50,887 nt of DNA from an uncultured Verrucomicrobia subdivision 3 bacterium (GTDB lineage: Bacteria; Verrucomicrobiota; Verrucomicrobiia; Limisphaerales; UBA11358): NCBI GenBank assembly GCA_903944085.1, contig CAJAQO010000307.1, forward strand, positions 1 to 50,887, in the 5' to 3' direction. The translations under genes and the position numbers were made by a program. A model generated the notes under the pieces. It was not told the DNA's origin. It did no database searches and saw only the letters and a program-made list of their open reading frames with translations. Below are positions 37,312 through 47,754 of the stretch, piece after piece. The stretch's first letter is position 1. Each line of letters opens with the position of its first letter.

Positions 37312-37386
37312 GCGCGGTTAGCTCAGTGGTAGAGCATTACCTTGACACGGTAGGGGTCGGAGGTTCGAAACCTCCACCGCGCACCA
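37312..37386 (+). tRNA. tRNA-Val (anticodon GAC)
   Basis: A full cloverleaf of 75 bases including encoded CCA. Acceptor GCGCGGT pairs with ACCGCGC. The D arm contains GCTC-AGTGGTAGA-GCA. The anticodon stem TTACC/GGTAG holds the loop TTGACAC with anticodon GAC. The T arm is GGAGG-TTCGAAA-CCTCC. It is flanked by integrase stubs, as expected of a tRNA used as an integration site. Confidence 0.95.
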
Positions 37387-37467
37387 TCTTCGCTGAGGGA
37401 AATTGACTCTTTTTTAATTTCAGACACATTTCTGACACAAAATACTGCCAACGACGCGGAACCGGAC

Positions 37468-37626
37468 ATGCGCAAATGGCCGGTCAAAGTCAAACACAGG
37501 AACAAAGTTTTCGCCCGGATTTGTAAACCTTGCGAGGAGCAGAATTATTACCGCGTGGCCTGGAAGGCTGCCGGCAAACGGCAGATGAAATCGTTTGCGA
37601 CGGACTTACACCATTGTTTCAGGTGA
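37468..37626 (+). pseudogene. Integrase N-terminal stub 2
   Basis: A 52-residue plus-strand frame starting MRKWPVKVKHRNKVFARICK, then YYRVAWKAAGKRQMKSFATD. It matches the arm-type N-terminus of tyrosine integrases (YRV-W-AAGKR-MKSF). It stops after FATDLHHCFR, where it meets the end of a third, oppositely oriented stub at about 37610. No catalytic residues are present. Confidence 0.5.
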
Positions 37627-37946
37627 CCGCACTCTGTCACCAGCGTGTCCGGCTTTTTGCCTGAAGTAGCCAGCCGCGGATCGTAAGTCTGTGCGAGATA
37701 TTTGGCAAATTTCGGACACCACCCGATATGGCGCAGGCGATCCTCGCCCCGTTCCATCAGCAGCGTCCGAAATTCCTCCTGCGCGGCGGCGATTGTGCCG
37801 GGTTCCAGTGGCACCCATTTGACTTTCTTGCCCCCGGCGTCGTCCTCGACGGTGATCCGGACCAGGAACTTGCCATTGCGTCGCCATAGGCCGCGAATTG
37901 CGTGCTTGCGGTTGTCTAGGACCTTGGTGTATTTATAGCGGCGCAA
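37548..37946 (-). pseudogene. Integrase N-terminal stub 3
   Basis: A 132-residue minus-strand frame. It reads YTKVLDNRKHAIRGLWRRNG, then FLVRITVEDDAGGKKVKWVP, a Q-E-E-F-R-T-L-L helix and the start of a core-binding domain (FAKYLAQTYDPRLATSGKKP). These are the arm and early core-binding parts of a tyrosine recombinase. Similarity ends near 37610; the last residues are the antisense of stub 2. The catalytic Arg-His-Arg-Tyr domain is absent. Confidence 0.55.
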
Positions 37947-38061: not shown

Positions 38062-38148
38062 GCCGGTGTGGCGGAATTGGCAGACGCGCCAGACTCAAAA
38101 TCTGGTATCCGTGAGGATGTGTGGGTTCGACCCCCTCCGCCGGCACCA
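38062..38148 (+). tRNA. tRNA-Leu (anticodon CAA)
   Basis: An 87-base class II tRNA with encoded CCA. Acceptor GCCGGTG pairs with CGCCGGC. The anticodon stem CCAGA/TCTGG holds the loop CTCAAAA with anticodon CAA. A long variable arm (TATCCGTGAGGATG) is present, as in leucine tRNAs, and the T loop is TTCGACC. The T stem has one mismatch. The broken atpD fragment begins directly after its 3' end on the other strand. Confidence 0.93.
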
Positions 38149-38162
38149 TCTAAATCAACGAC

Positions 38163-38465
38163 TTCTATGACATTGCCGAAAATGTCGAACATCCGCGAGA
38201 GAATGGCTTTGCCCACCGGTGCTTTCAATGGACCGCCCGTGTCCGTGACCATCATGCCGCGCGCCAGCGCCTGCGTGGGCGTCAGCGCAATCCCGCGAAC
38301 ATGATGCGCATCGCTCTGCGCCAGCACCTCGATGACAATTTAATTTTCCGTCCCCGCGCGCAGCACCGAATAGATCGGCGGCAACGGCCCGTCGAACCGC
38401 ACATCCACGACGCTGCCGCGCACCGAGGCGACCGCACCGAGATTGGCTATAGCGGTCACGCTCAT
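38163..38465 (-). pseudogene. atpD: Truncated F1-type ATPase beta subunit (N-ATPase-like atpD)
   Basis: From ATG 38465 the minus strand encodes the first ~100 residues of an ATP synthase beta subunit: LGAVASVRGSVVDVRFDGPL, then HHVRGIALTPTQALARG, DTGGPLKAPVG and ILSRMFDIFGN. Codon 42 is TAA (38340-38342) in the place of a conserved Gln (T-E-N-Q-I-V-I-E), a single C-to-T change. Similarity ends just before tRNA-Leu, so the nucleotide-binding domain is lost. The start overlaps the aldolase stop (ATGA), showing it was once the next gene of that operon. The wording fits the beta subunit of Na+-type alternative N-ATPases, whose operons begin with atpD. Confidence 0.88.
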
Positions 38466-39559
38466 TTCTTTTCCATCGCGGCAGTGTATTCGCCCCGGCG
38501 CGCAGCACGGTTACATCTGGCGCGATGAAGCAGCGCTTGCTGTGCCGCTTTTACGTTGGCCTCCAGGCCGCGCCAGATTTCCAAAGCTGGCTGCTGGATG
38601 GCGCGGGCAAACGAAAATGACACCGCCCACGGCAGTTGCGACTTGAAACGTAAGTTCATCAAATTCAGCCGGGCCGAGGCCAGTTCGGCGGATTGGCCGC
38701 CGGATAGAAAAGCAATCCCCGGAACCGCAGCCGGAACGGTTCGCCACAGAGTCTTCACCGTGATGTCGGCCACCTCATCAATATCTTGTTCTTCATCCGG
38801 TTGACGGTCGGTCAATCGCACCTGATACTGCTGTTCACCGATGCCCACTTCTTTGACTTCTTGACGCGGGGGACAAGTCAATCCCGGCAACACCATGTTG
38901 GGTTTGAGAATCATGCCTTCCAACATCACGCGCTGGCAATTGAGCTGAATGAAAACATTTCGCAGGACTTCTTCCGTCACTTTGCGGCAGACCTCCAAAG
39001 TATGATCACCATCCATGAGCACTTCGGGTTCGACGATGGGAACCATGCCGGCTTCCTGGCACAGCGCAGCATAGCGTGCCAGGGCATGCGCGTTGGCCTC
39101 AATGCAACTCCGGCTGGGAATGTCATCACCGATGGTGAGCACCGCGCGCCACTTGGCGAACCGCGCCCCCATCTGAAAATATTCCGCCAGCCGGTCGCGC
39201 AATCCGTCCAGCCCTTCGGTGATTTTTTCGCCAGGATGAGCGGCCAGGTCCTTGGCGCCGGCATCCACTTTGATGCCGGGAATGATTCCCGCATCGGTTA
39301 GAACTTTGAGAAACGGAGTGCCGTCCTTCTTCTGCTGTCGAATTGTTTCGTCGTAAAGAATTGCCCCACTAATGCACTCGCCAAGGCCGGGCGTCGTCAC
39401 AATCAATTCCCGATACGCGCGTCGGGCTTCCAATGTTTGCGGGATGTTCAGCTTCGCGAATCGCTTGTCGCAGGTGGGATTGCTTTCATCCATCGCCAGC
39501 AATCCTTTGTTGTCGGCGACCAGTTTTCTTGCGGTATCAATTAATAATTGCGTATTCAT
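38462..39559 (-). CDS. Class I fructose-bisphosphate aldolase
   Basis: A 365-residue Schiff-base aldolase of the animal/plant-like class I family, which cleaves fructose 1,6-bisphosphate into triose phosphates. Start ATG 39559 gives the family N-terminus (TARKLVADNKGLLAMDESNP). The Schiff-base lysine is Lys219 in GMILKPNMV; Glu178 in IVEPEVLMDGDH and LSGGQS near the C-terminus are conserved. It is the last intact gene of the phosphoketolase-acetate kinase run. Its stop overlaps the start of the broken atpD. Confidence 0.95.
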   Translation of the reverse strand: MNTQLLIDTARKLVADNKGLLAMDESNPTCDKRFAKLNIPQTLEARRAYRELIVTTPGLGECISGAILYDETIRQQKKDGTPFLKVLTDAGIIPGIKVDAGAKDLAAHPGEKITEGLDGLRDRLAEYFQMGARFAKWRAVLTIGDDIPSRSCIEANAHALARYAALCQEAGMVPIVEPEVLMDGDHTLEVCRKVTEEVLRNVFIQLNCQRVMLEGMILKPNMVLPGLTCPPRQEVKEVGIGEQQYQVRLTDRQPDEEQDIDEVADITVKTLWRTVPAAVPGIAFLSGGQSAELASARLNLMNLRFKSQLPWAVSFSFARAIQQPALEIWRGLEANVKAAQQALLHRARCNRAARRGEYTAAMEKK

Positions 39560-39588
39560 GTCGGTAATTTGCGCCTCGCCCAATATTT

Positions 39589-42434: not shown

Positions 42435-43196
42435 TTAGCTGTTCACCATTTCATCCACCCAATATCCTTTACGATTATAATGCCCATAAAGATTGGTCTC
42501 ATAATCACGGTCAACGAGCGACTTGTCGGTGAATACCGGCGAGCGCTTGATGACTTGTCGGGTAAGATCAATCACGACTTTACGTTCACTCCAACTCACG
42601 CTCTCAATCCAAAGTGGCGAAATCAGAACTTTTTTCCCTGCCCACCAATTGCTCGTGTTGACGACTAGATAACGAATCTCCCACGTTTCGTCGTCAATGA
42701 TAAAATCCTCGACATGGCCGATTTCGCCGTCTTCGGCCTGGATGTTATAGCCCGTTACTTCGTGACAACTCCGCAGATGGTGGTCCCAAGCTTTTCCACC
42801 CGGGTTGTGTTGTTTCCATTTAACACTATCGCGCTCGATGTAAGGATAAGATCCCCAACTGTAGGGCCCATACCAATAACTCGGCCAGCCATAGTAGCCA
42901 TAGTAATCCGACTCGAATTGTTGTGAAACCGGTTTGTCACTGTCCAGCGAGGGACTGTCCTCGATTTGCTTTTTGGTCAGATCGGCAATGATGTTATCGT
43001 GATCGGCATTCACCGCTACGAGCGCATACGGGGAGAGCAACACCTTGCGGCCCGAAAGCCAATTCCCTGTGTTGGCAACCAGGTAGCGGACGGTCCAGCG
43101 CCGGTCATCAAAATAAATATCTTTGACCTTGCCAATCGTTTCATCGTCGGTGTTTTGGATTGAATATCCGTTCAGTATTTTGACTTTGCTTAACAT
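42435..43196 (-). CDS. Protein with two PRC-barrel domains
   Basis: A 253-residue protein with two PRC-barrel-like halves. The first (residues 1-80) reads GYSIQNTDDETIGKVKDIYF, then RYLVANTGNWLSGRKVLLSP; the second (about 145-225) GYNIQAEDGEIGHVEDFIID and RYLVVNTSNWWAGKKVLISP. A Tyr/Trp/Gly-rich linker joins them. PRC-barrel proteins of this size are often stress or envelope associated; the role here is not known. Start ATG 43196 is chosen because homology begins there. It is followed by a terminator. Confidence 0.88.
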   Translation of the reverse strand: MLSKVKILNGYSIQNTDDETIGKVKDIYFDDRRWTVRYLVANTGNWLSGRKVLLSPYALVAVNADHDNIIADLTKKQIEDSPSLDSDKPVSQQFESDYYGYYGWPSYWYGPYSWGSYPYIERDSVKWKQHNPGGKAWDHHLRSCHEVTGYNIQAEDGEIGHVEDFIIDDETWEIRYLVVNTSNWWAGKKVLISPLWIESVSWSERKVVIDLTRQVIKRSPVFTDKSLVDRDYETNLYGHYNRKGYWVDEMVNS

Positions 43197-43365
43197 AATC
43201 TGCCTTTTGTTATTTTGTTTTGGTTGAAATAAGTTTGTTATCGTTGGCACGGCGGCCAGTTTTCAGATTGCACGCGTTGGGTTGGTTTTGCTATGGGGTG
43301 AAACCCTACCGTGGAAAATGGCGGGACCGCGCCGGGAAATTCTAACGCCAAAGGCGCAAATATTT

Positions 43366-44565
43366 TCAATCTACCATCATCGCCGGGCAGGTTCGTAAAA
43401 CTGAGCGGGCGATCATGAGTTCTTCATCTGTGCGAATGACGCGAACCGTTACGCGGCTGGCTGGCGCCGAAATCACCGGCGCAGTTTCGGCATTGCGAGC
43501 CTTGTCGAGATCTATGCCCAAAAAGGTCAAACCCTCGCAGATCCGTGCGCGAACGGGCTGCGCATTTTCGCCGATGCCACCGGCGAAAACCAGCGAGTCC
43601 AGACCACCCAGCGCAGCGGCATAAGCGCCGATCCACTTTTTCGCTTGATAACAAAACAATGCCACAGCTTCCGCTGCACGCACGTCCGCAGCTTCTTTCG
43701 CGAGCAAGTCGCGCATATCGGAACTCGTTTCTGAAATACCAAGCAAGCCGGATTCGTGATTGACCATTTTGTAAAACTGGCTGGTAGTCATCTGCTCGGT
43801 GCGCGCGAGATACGGCGCGAGGCCGGGGTCTAAATCGCCGGAACGCGTGCTCATCACCAATCCCGCCGTCGGCGTGAAGCCCATGCTGGTATCAATGCTC
43901 TTGCCGTCGCGCACGGCAGCCATGCTTGCGCCGTTGCCGAGATGCGCGAGGATGACGCGGCCTTTCGTTGCCGCCGGGTCGCCGAGGCGCACGAGTTCTT
44001 CCATCAAATAGGCATAAGACAAACCGTGAAATCCGTAGCGTTGAATTCCCTTGGCGTCGAAGCGTCGCGGAATCGGCAGAAGCTTGGCCACGCGTGGCAT
44101 GGTTTGGTGAAACGCCGTGTCAAAGCACGCCAACTGCGGCAGCTTCGGATGACGCAGTCGAAACGCCTCGATCAATTCAATCTCGCGCGGCAAATGATCC
44201 GGGTCGTAAGGACTGATCCGATGCAGTTCGGCCAACAATTCCGGCGTGACAATTTCCGGCTCGGTATGTTTCATGCCATGAACCACGCGATGGCCAACGG
44301 CTTTGACCGAAGTGAAATCCGGTTGGGTTTCGAGCCAATCCAGCAGAGAGTTTGCGGCTGATTTGTGATCGGCGGCAATAAGTTCGCGACTCGCCTGTGG
44401 TTTGCCGCCGCCTTCGTGAAAGGTCAGATTTGTCCCGCTCAAGCCGATGCGATCAACGGTTCCATACAGCCCGCGTTTCAGCGGTTTTACCGCCACATAC
44501 AGCGCGAACTTGATGCTCGACGAGCCGCCATTGATCGTCAGGATGTTTGAATTACCGGGCTTCAT
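43366..44565 (-). CDS. ackA: Acetate kinase
   Basis: AckA converts acetyl phosphate + ADP to acetate + ATP. The protein has 399 residues, the normal length. Signatures: ILTINGGSSSIKFALY near the N-terminus, GHRVVHGMKH, CFDTAFHQTMP, RYGFHGLSYAYLMEEL, ILAHLGNGASMAAVRDGKS (catalytic region) and DSLVFAGGIGENAQPVRARI. Its start overlaps the end of the HAD phosphatase gene by 14 bases, so they are co-translated. It completes the phosphoketolase shunt. Confidence 0.96.
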   Translation of the reverse strand: MKPGNSNILTINGGSSSIKFALYVAVKPLKRGLYGTVDRIGLSGTNLTFHEGGGKPQASRELIAADHKSAANSLLDWLETQPDFTSVKAVGHRVVHGMKHTEPEIVTPELLAELHRISPYDPDHLPREIELIEAFRLRHPKLPQLACFDTAFHQTMPRVAKLLPIPRRFDAKGIQRYGFHGLSYAYLMEELVRLGDPAATKGRVILAHLGNGASMAAVRDGKSIDTSMGFTPTAGLVMSTRSGDLDPGLAPYLARTEQMTTSQFYKMVNHESGLLGISETSSDMRDLLAKEAADVRAAEAVALFCYQAKKWIGAYAAALGGLDSLVFAGGIGENAQPVRARICEGLTFLGIDLDKARNAETAPVISAPASRVTVRVIRTDEELMIARSVLRTCPAMMVD

Positions 44566-45193
44566 TGATGACTACAGGCTGTAATCCGAACGCGGCCAGT
44601 TTTGCGGCAGTGGACTTGCAATCTGTGTGGAGAATACTCCGAATTCCCAAACTCTCCGCGACTTGAACGAACAGCGGCGTGTTTTCGATATAAACAATTT
44701 GGCCGGCTGGCACCTGCGCGATGTCGAGCGCCAGCCGAAAGATGTCCGCGTCGGGCTTGCGGAGGTGAACAAAGCACGAGGAAATAAACGCATCTACAAA
44801 ACCGTCCAGTTTGAATTGGCGAATGCGATAAGCATTCACTTCACGCGCCTCGTTGCTGACCACGAAAATTTTCAATTTGTATTTTGCTTTAAGATGGCGA
44901 ACCAGTTCAATCATCTCACTGAAAGGTTTCGATTGCGCGAACATGAACTGACGAAACTCGGCCCGCGTGAATGGGCGTTTTTTCCAGAAGACCACCCGGT
45001 CTAAATATTCCTGGAAGGTGATTTTATCCTCTTCTTGGATTTCAAAGTTCAGCTCATGCCGTTCCTGCATTTCGGCCCAGTCGAGCTTGAAGTGCTTCGC
45101 CGCGCGCTTGCGAGCATGATGATCCCAGCCGTTGGTAAGCAAGACACCGCCGACATCCAGAAACAGGCAGGTGATAGGAACAGTCTTTTTCAT
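44552..45193 (-). CDS. HAD-family phosphatase
   Basis: A 213-residue haloacid-dehalogenase-like hydrolase. Motif I is CLFLDVGGVLL with nucleophile Asp13; the usual second Asp of DxD is Gly, as in YihX-type members. Motif II is VVSNE, the Lys of motif III lies in LRKPDADIF, and motif IV is IVYIENTPLF, where Glu-Asn replaces the usual Asp-Asp pair. That change may alter metal binding. Start ATG 45193 is chosen over an upstream one that lacks homology. It sits between glgP (11 bases upstream) and ackA (overlapping). A sugar-phosphate substrate is likely but unproven. Confidence 0.82.
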   Translation of the reverse strand: MKKTVPITCLFLDVGGVLLTNGWDHHARKRAAKHFKLDWAEMQERHELNFEIQEEDKITFQEYLDRVVFWKKRPFTRAEFRQFMFAQSKPFSEMIELVRHLKAKYKLKIFVVSNEAREVNAYRIRQFKLDGFVDAFISSCFVHLRKPDADIFRLALDIAQVPAGQIVYIENTPLFVQVAESLGIRSILHTDCKSTAAKLAAFGLQPVVINEAR

Positions 45194-45204
45194 GCTGCAA
45201 TAAT

Positions 45205-47754
45205 TTAACGCTGCCACACGATTCTCGAATCTTCCAGCGGGAAGGCGAGGCCTTCGTAGTGCGGTAGCACGCGCGCCGTATAGTCCGCTGGCGATCGGAT
45301 GGCAGGCACCGTTGCACTGTAAATATAGCTGCCGGCTTCGTCCGCCAGCGGATGAAGCAGGGTCATTTCCTGGCGCACGGTAGAACTGCCTTTGGTTCCA
45401 TCGGCATAGAGTTCCACGCGCACCGACTTGGGGTCAAGGCCGTGGAGACAAACTTGTATCTCAAATATGTGTTGGTCGCCTTTGCTTTCCACCTTCACTT
45501 GCCCGAAGTGCAGTGTGGCCCATTTCTGATCCAAGCTATGATGCCAATCCACTATTTGCTTGGCTGCGGCACCTTTGTTGGCCACGCGTGATTGGCAGGC
45601 AATCACTGCCGGAAGATAGTGTTGTTCGGTATATTCGCGCACGGTGCGGTCGGCGGCGAAGTGCGGAGTCAAACGCGCCATGCTTTCCCGCATTCGTTTG
45701 ACCCAGACAATCGGAATGCCTTTTTCGTTGCGCGCATAAAATTCAGGAATCACTTCGCGTTCGAGTCTTTCATAGAGCGCCTCAGCTTCGGCTGCGTCCC
45801 AAACGGGATCGCTGCCATGTTCCTGACCGTCGCCCAGCGCCCAGCCTAAATCGGACACATAGGCCTCGGCCCACCAGCCATCCAATTCCGAAAGATTTAA
45901 GCCGCCATTCACCAACACCTTCATGCCGCTTGTGCCACAGGCTTCCCACGGACGCCGGGGTGTGTTGAGCCAGACGTCCACACCTTGCACCAGGCGCTCG
46001 GTCAATTGCATATCATAGTCGCTGAGAAAAATAGCGTGCGGACGAACTTCTGGTCGGCGAATGAATTGAATCCACTCTTTAATCAGCGCCTGTCCTTCTT
46101 TGTCCGCCGGATGCGCCTTGCCCGCAATCATAAGTTGCACGGGTCGCTGCGGATTGGACAGCAGGCGCAACAATCGCTCCGGATCGTGCAACAGCAAATT
46201 AGGTCTTTTGTAAGTTGCGAAGCGGCGCGCAAAACCGATGGTTAATATTTTCGGATCAAAAAGATGTTTCGCTTCCTCAATGGTTTCGGCGGAAGCGCCG
46301 GCAGCGGCATAGTGCCGGGCCAGACGCTCGCGCGCATAATCAACAAGGCACTCGGTGGAAGTGGTGCGCAACTGCCAGAGATTTTCGTCGGGGACGCTGC
46401 GAATCCCTTGCTGTTCCAGATTTTCCTTCATCCCCAGCCAGCGGTCTTTGCCGCAGGCTCTGGTCCAAAGTTCGTCGGCGGCGGCGGAATCCCACGTCGG
46501 ATGATGAACGCCATTGGTGACGTGACCAATGGGAACTTCGTCCACCGGCCAGTGCGGAAAGAGCGGCGAAAATAATTGCCGGCTCACTTGACCGTGCAGG
46601 CGGCTCACGCCATTCGCCGCACCGCTGCCGCGAATGGCCAGATACGCCATGTTGAAACTTTCCGAAGCGTCGTTCGGATTTTGGCGGCCCAAAGCCAGTA
46701 AGTCATAGAGCGAGATACCGAGCTTATCTGTGGCGTAATGTCCAAGGTATTGCTCGATGAGCGCCGGCGTAAAACGATCAAAGCCCGCAGTCACGGCCGT
46801 GTGGGTGGTAAAAAGATTTCCGGCGCGCGTGGCGGCCAACGCCACTTCAAATGGCTGCGCATTTTCCTGCATGAAACTGCGGGCGCGCTCCAACACCGCA
46901 AAGGCCGCATGACCTTCGTTCAAGTGGCAGACATCCGGTTGGATGCCTAGCGCCGCGAGCAATCGCCAGCCGCCAATGCCCAGCAGCATTTCCTGCTTGA
47001 GGCGCAACTCTGGCCCACCGCCGTATAACTCACTGGTGATGCCGCGATGCGCGGGAAAGTTCGCCGCATCATTGCTGTCCAGCAGATAAAGTTTTACTCG
47101 TCCGACTTGCACCTGCCACGCGCGCAACCAGACGGAATAACCCGGCAAGGTGATTTCCAAACGCAGCCACTCACCGTTCGGCTGGCGCAACGGCGTGATC
47201 GGCAACTGTCCCGGGTCGTTATACGGGTAAAGCGCCTGCTGTGAACCGTCCTTGTCAATCACCTGACGAAAGTAACCTTGTTGATAAAGCAGTCCCACGC
47301 CAATGACGGGCACGCCGAGATCGCTCGCCGCTTTGAGCTGATCGCCGGCCACATTGCCCAGCCCGCCGGAATAAATGGGCAGCGCCTCGCTCAACATATA
47401 TTCCATGCTGAAATACGCGACGCACTTCAGCGGCGACTGCGGGTGGATTTTCTGAAACCACGCCGGCGCTGCTGCCGCCTGCCGCTTGGTTTGCAGCAAA
47501 TCATCAATGTTTTTGCGAAAGGCCGGATTGGACAGCACGCCCTTGAGTTTGTCTTTCGAGACCGTTTGCAGAACCACCCAGGGATTTTGGGTGTGCTCCC
47601 ACAGCGCAGGATCAAGCTGCCGCCAAACTTCGTCGGTGGCGTGGTTCCACGACCAATGTAAATCCAATGCCAGCTCCGCCAGGGAATCAAAACCTTCGAT
47701 GCCCGCATGCGGAGAGCTGTAGATCGGTTGGCTGACCGGGGATGGTTCGTTCAT
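45205..47754 (-). CDS. glgP: Alpha-glucan phosphorylase
   Basis: An 849-residue PLP enzyme of the shorter phosphorylase subfamily with an N-terminal DUF3417 domain (DSLAELALDLHWSWNHATDE). It releases glucose 1-phosphate from glycogen or maltodextrin. Signatures: AYFSMEYMLSEALPIYSGGL, HLNEGHAAFAVLERAR, GFARRFATYKRPNLLL, RPWEACGTSGMKVLVNGGLN (PLP lysine in GMK) and LSELDGWWAEAY. The C-terminal 100 residues form an extra beta domain. It feeds sugar phosphates to the xfp-ackA branch. The start is at ATG 47754. Confidence 0.93.
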   Translation of the reverse strand: MNEPSPVSQPIYSSPHAGIEGFDSLAELALDLHWSWNHATDEVWRQLDPALWEHTQNPWVVLQTVSKDKLKGVLSNPAFRKNIDDLLQTKRQAAAAPAWFQKIHPQSPLKCVAYFSMEYMLSEALPIYSGGLGNVAGDQLKAASDLGVPVIGVGLLYQQGYFRQVIDKDGSQQALYPYNDPGQLPITPLRQPNGEWLRLEITLPGYSVWLRAWQVQVGRVKLYLLDSNDAANFPAHRGITSELYGGGPELRLKQEMLLGIGGWRLLAALGIQPDVCHLNEGHAAFAVLERARSFMQENAQPFEVALAATRAGNLFTTHTAVTAGFDRFTPALIEQYLGHYATDKLGISLYDLLALGRQNPNDASESFNMAYLAIRGSGAANGVSRLHGQVSRQLFSPLFPHWPVDEVPIGHVTNGVHHPTWDSAAADELWTRACGKDRWLGMKENLEQQGIRSVPDENLWQLRTTSTECLVDYARERLARHYAAAGASAETIEEAKHLFDPKILTIGFARRFATYKRPNLLLHDPERLLRLLSNPQRPVQLMIAGKAHPADKEGQALIKEWIQFIRRPEVRPHAIFLSDYDMQLTERLVQGVDVWLNTPRRPWEACGTSGMKVLVNGGLNLSELDGWWAEAYVSDLGWALGDGQEHGSDPVWDAAEAEALYERLEREVIPEFYARNEKGIPIVWVKRMRESMARLTPHFAADRTVREYTEQHYLPAVIACQSRVANKGAAAKQIVDWHHSLDQKWATLHFGQVKVESKGDQHIFEIQVCLHGLDPKSVRVELYADGTKGSSTVRQEMTLLHPLADEAGSYIYSATVPAIRSPADYTARVLPHYEGLAFPLEDSRIVWQR

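Follow-up and report, generated by a model that had tools for sequence, protein, structure and literature searches.

The N-ATPase, or alternate F1F0 ATPase, is encoded by an operon with the gene order atpDCQRBEFAG, reported by Dibrova et al. (2010). In the accessible portions of two other papers, N-ATPases are presumed to use ATP for pumping ions and not to make ATP (PMC11738941), one of them is proton-coupled with a c17 ring, and the cellular functions of these enzymes are called largely unexplored (PMC5376962). N-ATPase loci in a degenerate state have been described before, and the locus presented here adds another. The one found in print, in the available text on Chlorobaculum tepidum, is partial and degenerate (PMC4154653). 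As in that organism, the degenerate locus described here is found in a genome with a normal F-ATPase; however, C. tepidum keeps half of its locus according to the same text, whereas here a stub alone is left, broken at a tRNA gene (PMC4154653). Compared with the operon of Dibrova et al. (2010), the stub corresponds to the first gene both by family model and by position, and relatives carry the whole operon, but here about 101 codons of atpD are present and the other eight genes are not at the locus. A third comparison concerns the integrative elements of tRNA sites, among them the tycheposons, with which, as far as the accessible account of them goes, the locus shares a tyrosine recombinase beside a tRNA and a recurrent integration site (PMC10872708). 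Unlike in tycheposons as described there, no element, intact integrase or partial tRNA-Leu copy was found in the source genome, and the integrase fragment and the atpD stub flank the tRNA on opposite sides (PMC10872708). Our main reading, to which we give a probability of about 0.8, is that the locus is the dead 5' stub of a former operon in which acetate kinase, (PRC-barrel), phosphoketolase and aldolase genes were followed by atpDCQRBEFAG.

The atpD remnant and the genes upstream of it

The window, that is, the whole stretch of 50,887 nucleotides that was analyzed, contains at positions 38163-38465 of the minus strand the first ~101 codons of atpD, the beta subunit gene of an N-type ("alternate") F1F0 ATPase (Table 1). 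The minus-strand translation from 38465 to 38163 reads MSVTAIANLGAVASVRGSVV...TEN*IVIEVLAQ...RMFDIFGNVIE. In a profile search it matched positions 1-92 of the 449 of TIGR03305, the model for the alternate F1F0 ATPase beta subunit (E 1.4e-36), with 126 bits against 62 bits for the ordinary F-type beta model TIGR01039; the score falls below the 752-bit whole-protein cut-off of TIGR03305 because most of the protein is missing. Pfam recognized the beta-barrel domain ATP-synt_ab_N. The remnant terminates ahead of the catalytic P-loop and, given this absence and the stop at codon 42, a working beta subunit cannot be made from it. What remains is a dead 5' stub, with the metabolic genes in front of it intact; as a pseudogene it is a case of ordinary genome decay. 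The original prediction had described a broken alternative ATPase atpD of about 100 codons whose start overlaps the aldolase stop as ATGA and which breaks off at a tRNA-Leu, and each of these points was borne out. The same prediction took the stop at codon 42 for a C-to-T change. The TAA is indeed there, but six intact relatives carry GAG, AAA, GAG, CGC, CAG and GCA at this codon in a codon alignment, so a C-to-T origin cannot be claimed at such a variable position and was set aside. The dN/dS ratio was likewise put aside as weak evidence of decay, since over 93 codons, stop codons skipped, the values for the remnant (0.12-0.23) and for intact pairs (0.05-0.21) overlap.

Table 1. Positions in the window of the atpD remnant, the junction and the neighboring genes
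Feature	Position	Strand	Basis or remark
tRNA-Val(GAC)	37312..37386	+	
Tyrosine integrase, N-terminal part, truncated after ~130 aa, divergent from tRNA-Leu	37548..37946	-	similarity to L095 integrase
tRNA-Leu(CAA)	38062..38148	+	sole full-length match in own genome (18 of 37 candidates scored)
ATCAACGACTT, tRNA-Leu 3' trailer motif abutting the atpD remnant (junction)	38154..38164	+	recurrence and end of atpD homology
atpD 5' remnant, ~101 codons, pseudogene	38163..38465	-	TIGR03305 positions 1-92 of 449; 74-85% identity to same-genus copies
In-frame stop TAA, atpD codon 42	38340..38342	-	translation; relatives have varied sense codons
Aldolase stop overlapping atpD start (ATGA)	38462..38465	-	also in relative L109
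Class I fructose-bisphosphate aldolase, open	38462..39583	-	NF033379, 501 bits
Phosphoketolase, open, 819 aa	39882..42341	-	NF003619, 1411 bits
PRC-barrel protein	42435..43250	-	PF05239
Acetate kinase family protein	43366..44565	-	TIGR00016, 385 bits
HAD-like hydrolase	44552..45217	-	PF13419
Alpha-glucan phosphorylase family protein	45205..47754	-	TIGR02094, 798 bits

All six genes upstream of the remnant, from the aldolase to the alpha-glucan phosphorylase, have open reading frames. A short scrap of a class I aldolase gene with stops was also seen elsewhere in the source genome (G000:C150:19687-19875; 65% identity over 63 aa). Among the 49 same-genus genomes, seven contain an N-ATPase beta gene with 83-100% identity to the query (G071, G021, G005, G012, G069, G008 and G004, the last one cut by a contig end), and an N-terminal atpD fragment that ends inside a contig appeared, among the matches listed, in the source genome alone. 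The expectation that the operon once ran on into an F1-type ATPase, and that relatives would have the aldolase followed by atpD and the remaining N-ATPase genes, is supported by relatives from Verrucomicrobia subdivision 3, two in particular. G012, of the same genus, has acetate kinase, phosphoketolase and aldolase genes and then atpDCQRBEFAG; for every one of these nine an alternate-ATPase or related NCBIfam model scored above its cut-off. L109, a contig of a Pedosphaera MAG, has the same ATGA overlap between aldolase and atpD as the locus studied here, and then D, C, Q, R, B, E, F, A and G. All nine genes were also found in L106, L107, L108, L125, L110 and L121; L027 has them too, except that its contig ends within gamma. 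Other arrangements exist: atpD lies behind the phosphoketolase gene with no aldolase between them in G004 and G051, G032 has the phosphoketolase-aldolase pair with other genes behind it, and in G071 and G021 the aldolase and the N-ATPase are apart, so gene order is fluid. The phosphoketolase gene of G071 is itself broken in the assembly (L101:5688-7600), with residues ~217-384 missing and a split near ~687, and the acetate kinase and aldolase genes beside it are open.

The conservation of the remnant raises the question whether the beta-barrel domain of AtpD has given rise to a small protein with a function of its own. The protein similarity is well kept (~85% to G071, G021, G005 and G004), but the in-frame TAA and the missing P-loop speak against such a product, which we hold to be extremely improbable. 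No conserved stand-alone short atpD gene was present in the 48 other same-genus genomes among the matches listed, which reach about E 1e-18, so that very short scraps could escape.

The junction at tRNA-Leu(CAA)

In an alignment with seven relatives, atpD homology stops at 38163-38164, 16 nt past the 3' end of the tRNA-Leu. One relative's copy, from G045 (L032), was aligned in this check and excluded from the later alignment and codon counts, as it contains N. The trailer ATCAACGACTT recurs at the same offset after the tRNA-Leu CCA in G026, G059 and G008, and with one change in G023; allowing one change, it was found in 5 of the 49 same-genus genomes, the source genome included, and its reversed control in 0 of 49. 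What lies behind it differs. On the trailer side of the tRNA-Leu in G026 and G059 an integrase gene begins after 65 nt (445 aa, PF00589, complete in G026 and incomplete in the assembly of G059). In G008 genes for TniQ and TniB lie directly behind the tRNA-Leu(CAA) (L097:5239-7918), which suggests a Tn7/Tn5053-like element at this site. In G023 the near-identical trailer is next to an ordinary helicase gene, named by reading its translation. Because of this helicase neighbor the motif was set aside as proof of an integrase arm and may be the native trailer of tRNA-Leu; it is either that or an old attachment arm.

Concerning the 5' side of the tRNA-Leu, the integrase fragment at 37548-37946 aligns with the integrase of L095 (401 aa, with PF00589) at 35% identity over 130 aa, and gave no significant match of its own to Pfam, NCBIfam or PHROGs. 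An intact tyrosine integrase is thus absent beside this tRNA-Leu, where the N-terminal third alone is left. Integrases of this 5'-side family, reading away from the tRNA-Leu(CAA), occur at 7 of the 30 loci fetched, the source locus included, and they are complete in 2 and N-terminal matches in 5. In addition, four same-genus genomes have an isolated copy of the 40 nt with which tRNA-Leu(CAA) begins (L098:3411-3450, L100:7023-7062, L104:1-40 and L105:573-612), three of them ending inside a contig and that of L104 cut by the contig end. The source genome showed no second partial tRNA-Leu copy: scoring of 18 of 37 candidates gave one full match and one of 39 nt with 87%. The integrases and the lone half copies fit elements that entered the anticodon loop from the 5' side, an arrangement opposite to the usual layout of integration at tRNA genes, and tRNA-Leu(CAA) is an integration hotspot in the genus. 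Since the integrase stub is on the 5' side and the atpD break on the other, the link between the integrase and the break is circumstantial.

Two further observations were made around this tRNA. In L095 (G026:C336) and L096 (G059:C145) the tRNA-Leu(CAA) is flanked by two divergent integrase genes of different families, of 401 and 412 aa on the 5' side and of 445 aa (incomplete in G059) on the 3' side. In the window, a stop-free stretch behind tRNA-Val (37387-37620, plus strand) faces the integrase fragment on the tRNA-Leu side tail to tail and looked by eye like the start of another integrase; it had no Pfam or PHROGs match, its comparison with the second integrase gave no more than E 0.01 across 16 residues, and it is left unassigned.

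Search for the other N-ATPase genes in the source genome

The source assembly has 5.79 Mb in 335 contigs, with 95.9% completeness and 4.67% contamination. Its five PF00006 matches are the F-ATPase alpha and beta subunits on contig C24, FliI on C83 and one each on C33 and C189; the canonical F-ATPase is the one of C24, with atpA and gamma over the cut-off and beta recognized by reading. Genome-wide N-ATPase searches were made for alpha, beta, gamma, a and b. No further alternate beta or atpD piece was found in the genome, and for alternate alpha, a and b nothing came over the cut-off; what appeared were weak matches, among them the F-type genes of C24. Within the window, the eight other N-ATPase genes had no credible match (best E 0.36); the full operon atpDCQRBEFAG, with atpQ and atpR, is not at the locus, which has the start of atpD alone.

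Gamma was the exception in the genome-wide profile search. An alternate gamma match at C262:51-617 covered profile positions 97-285 (272 bits, E 1.2e-80), and this 7,948-base contig (L204) contains the last two thirds of atpG, with its stop at 638. The piece has 80-88% DNA identity to the intact operons of L106, L107, L108, L109 and L125. Past atpG there is a short ORF, 44% identical over 62 aa to an ORF at the N-ATPase locus in L150, and then genes matching cysN and cysD; no tRNA was found on C262. The first 56 bases of the contig are presumably Illumina adapter, so its end is uninformative about the sequence further left. Between the stub and this gamma piece, 6.3-6.5 kb are unaccounted for in a 96% complete, 335-contig assembly. 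The partial gamma gene bears directly on the claim that an N-ATPase operon was lost, and it goes part of the way to a refutation that the original prediction itself had named, the presence of the rest elsewhere. That the rest is gone from the locus stands, as does the lack of the remainder of atpD in the searched genome, but complete loss of the operon is not claimed, part of one further gene being present elsewhere. A single deletion is one possibility; running from atpD to the tRNA, it would also have removed gamma, if gamma lay between.

On our main reading the ancestral operon had the metabolic genes first and the nine N-type rotary ATPase genes last. It was broken after atpD codon ~101, which left the stub fused to the sequence 16 nt behind tRNA-Leu(CAA), and the stop at codon 42 could have arisen before or after this break. 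As to how the break came about, the original prediction invoked integration or deletion at the tRNA. Deletion at the tRNA-Leu locus is slightly favored over a split, with about an even chance; integration may be the cause, but the integrase stub is on the 5' side of the tRNA, away from the break. If the downstream part was deleted at the locus, at least 6.9-7.1 kb would have been removed (codon ~101 to the atpG end, measured in L109 and L028), and the gamma piece of C262 would come from a second, badly assembled copy or from a co-binned strain. Alternatively, a rearrangement, or a mobile element carrying the tRNA-Leu, could have cut atpD and split the operon; the remainder would still be in the cell with its far end on C262, and the 6.3-6.5 kb between would be lost or unassembled. 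The gamma gene on C262 would be in keeping with such a split, as would integrases adjoining tRNA-Leu in the genus and a junction directly after a trailer motif that elsewhere stands where an integrase gene begins 65 nt behind the tRNA. Yet the assembly lacks the remainder of atpD as well as alternate alpha, a and b genes, the tRNA-Leu looks like a resident gene, the G023 trailer stands next to a helicase gene, and C262 shows no sign of an element, a short ORF ending ahead of cysN being what comes after gamma there. We consider the split unlikely. A tRNA-Leu was sought in 13 N-ATPase loci (10 distinct places, up to 20 kb) and none was found, so no intermediate of the junction was seen.

The junction could also be an artefact of assembly or binning, the operon before it being intact in the real genome. 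The assembly is fragmented and partly contaminated, C262 with its adapter-like end shows that artefacts exist, and gamma is present while the middle of the operon is missing. However, the composition across the junction is alike: GC is 0.57 and 0.55 on the two sides, and the tetranucleotide profile of the right side correlates with that of the adjacent left chunk (r 0.96) and with two further ones (0.94). Genes on both sides have same-genus relatives with up to 87-88% identity, and the adapter word was sought in the window and not found. A chimeric contig is not indicated and, as an artefact would leave the stop at codon 42 to be explained, we regard this explanation as improbable, more so than the split.

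Phosphoketolase and N-ATPase genes in other bacteria

The 80 N-ATPase loci compared (L106-L185) were the best 80 of at least 553 confirmed matches to a Verrucomicrobia query. At 21 of the 80, which is not a survey frequency because a sample of best matches is biased towards the query, a phosphoketolase gene was found upstream, co-oriented and within 8 kb. The same count gave 17 of the 65 loci with at least 2.5 kb of upstream sequence and 13 of the 48 with at least 9 kb. An upstream co-oriented aldolase gene was present at 11 of the 80 loci and an acetate kinase gene at 7, and at 2 a phosphoketolase gene was elsewhere in the fetched flanks, on the other strand. At the remaining 59 of the 80 no upstream co-oriented phosphoketolase was seen, in some for want of sequence. 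Judged by record title, the 21 paired loci come from groups such as Verrucomicrobia, Kiritimatiellae, Acidobacteria, Myxococcales, Sumerlaeota and alpha-, beta- and gammaproteobacterial groups. A literature search for N-ATPase with phosphoketolase found no report linking them, and in passages of two papers on methanotrophs no link between phosphoketolase and ATPase was found.

N-ATPases are acquired laterally and lost again, and rearrangements commonly have a tRNA gene at their edge. We tentatively propose, with somewhat less than even confidence, that the stub is the fossil of a recurrent, horizontally spread module in which phosphoketolase and acetate kinase genes (with aldolase and glucan phosphorylase) and an N-type ATPase form one operon with separable halves, the ATP of acetate kinase feeding an ion pump when respiration stops. 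Where the operon is unbroken, the pump would presumably spend ATP, partly from the acetate-kinase step, on ion export; that it would be fed in this way is what we infer from the gene arrangement. The co-orientation of the N-ATPase with phosphoketolase, acetate kinase and aldolase genes in several phyla leads to a testable guess, namely that the pump may be the ATP sink of an acetate-forming pathway. Within a single genus, some species have the pump behind these metabolic genes and others do not, which offers a natural comparison.
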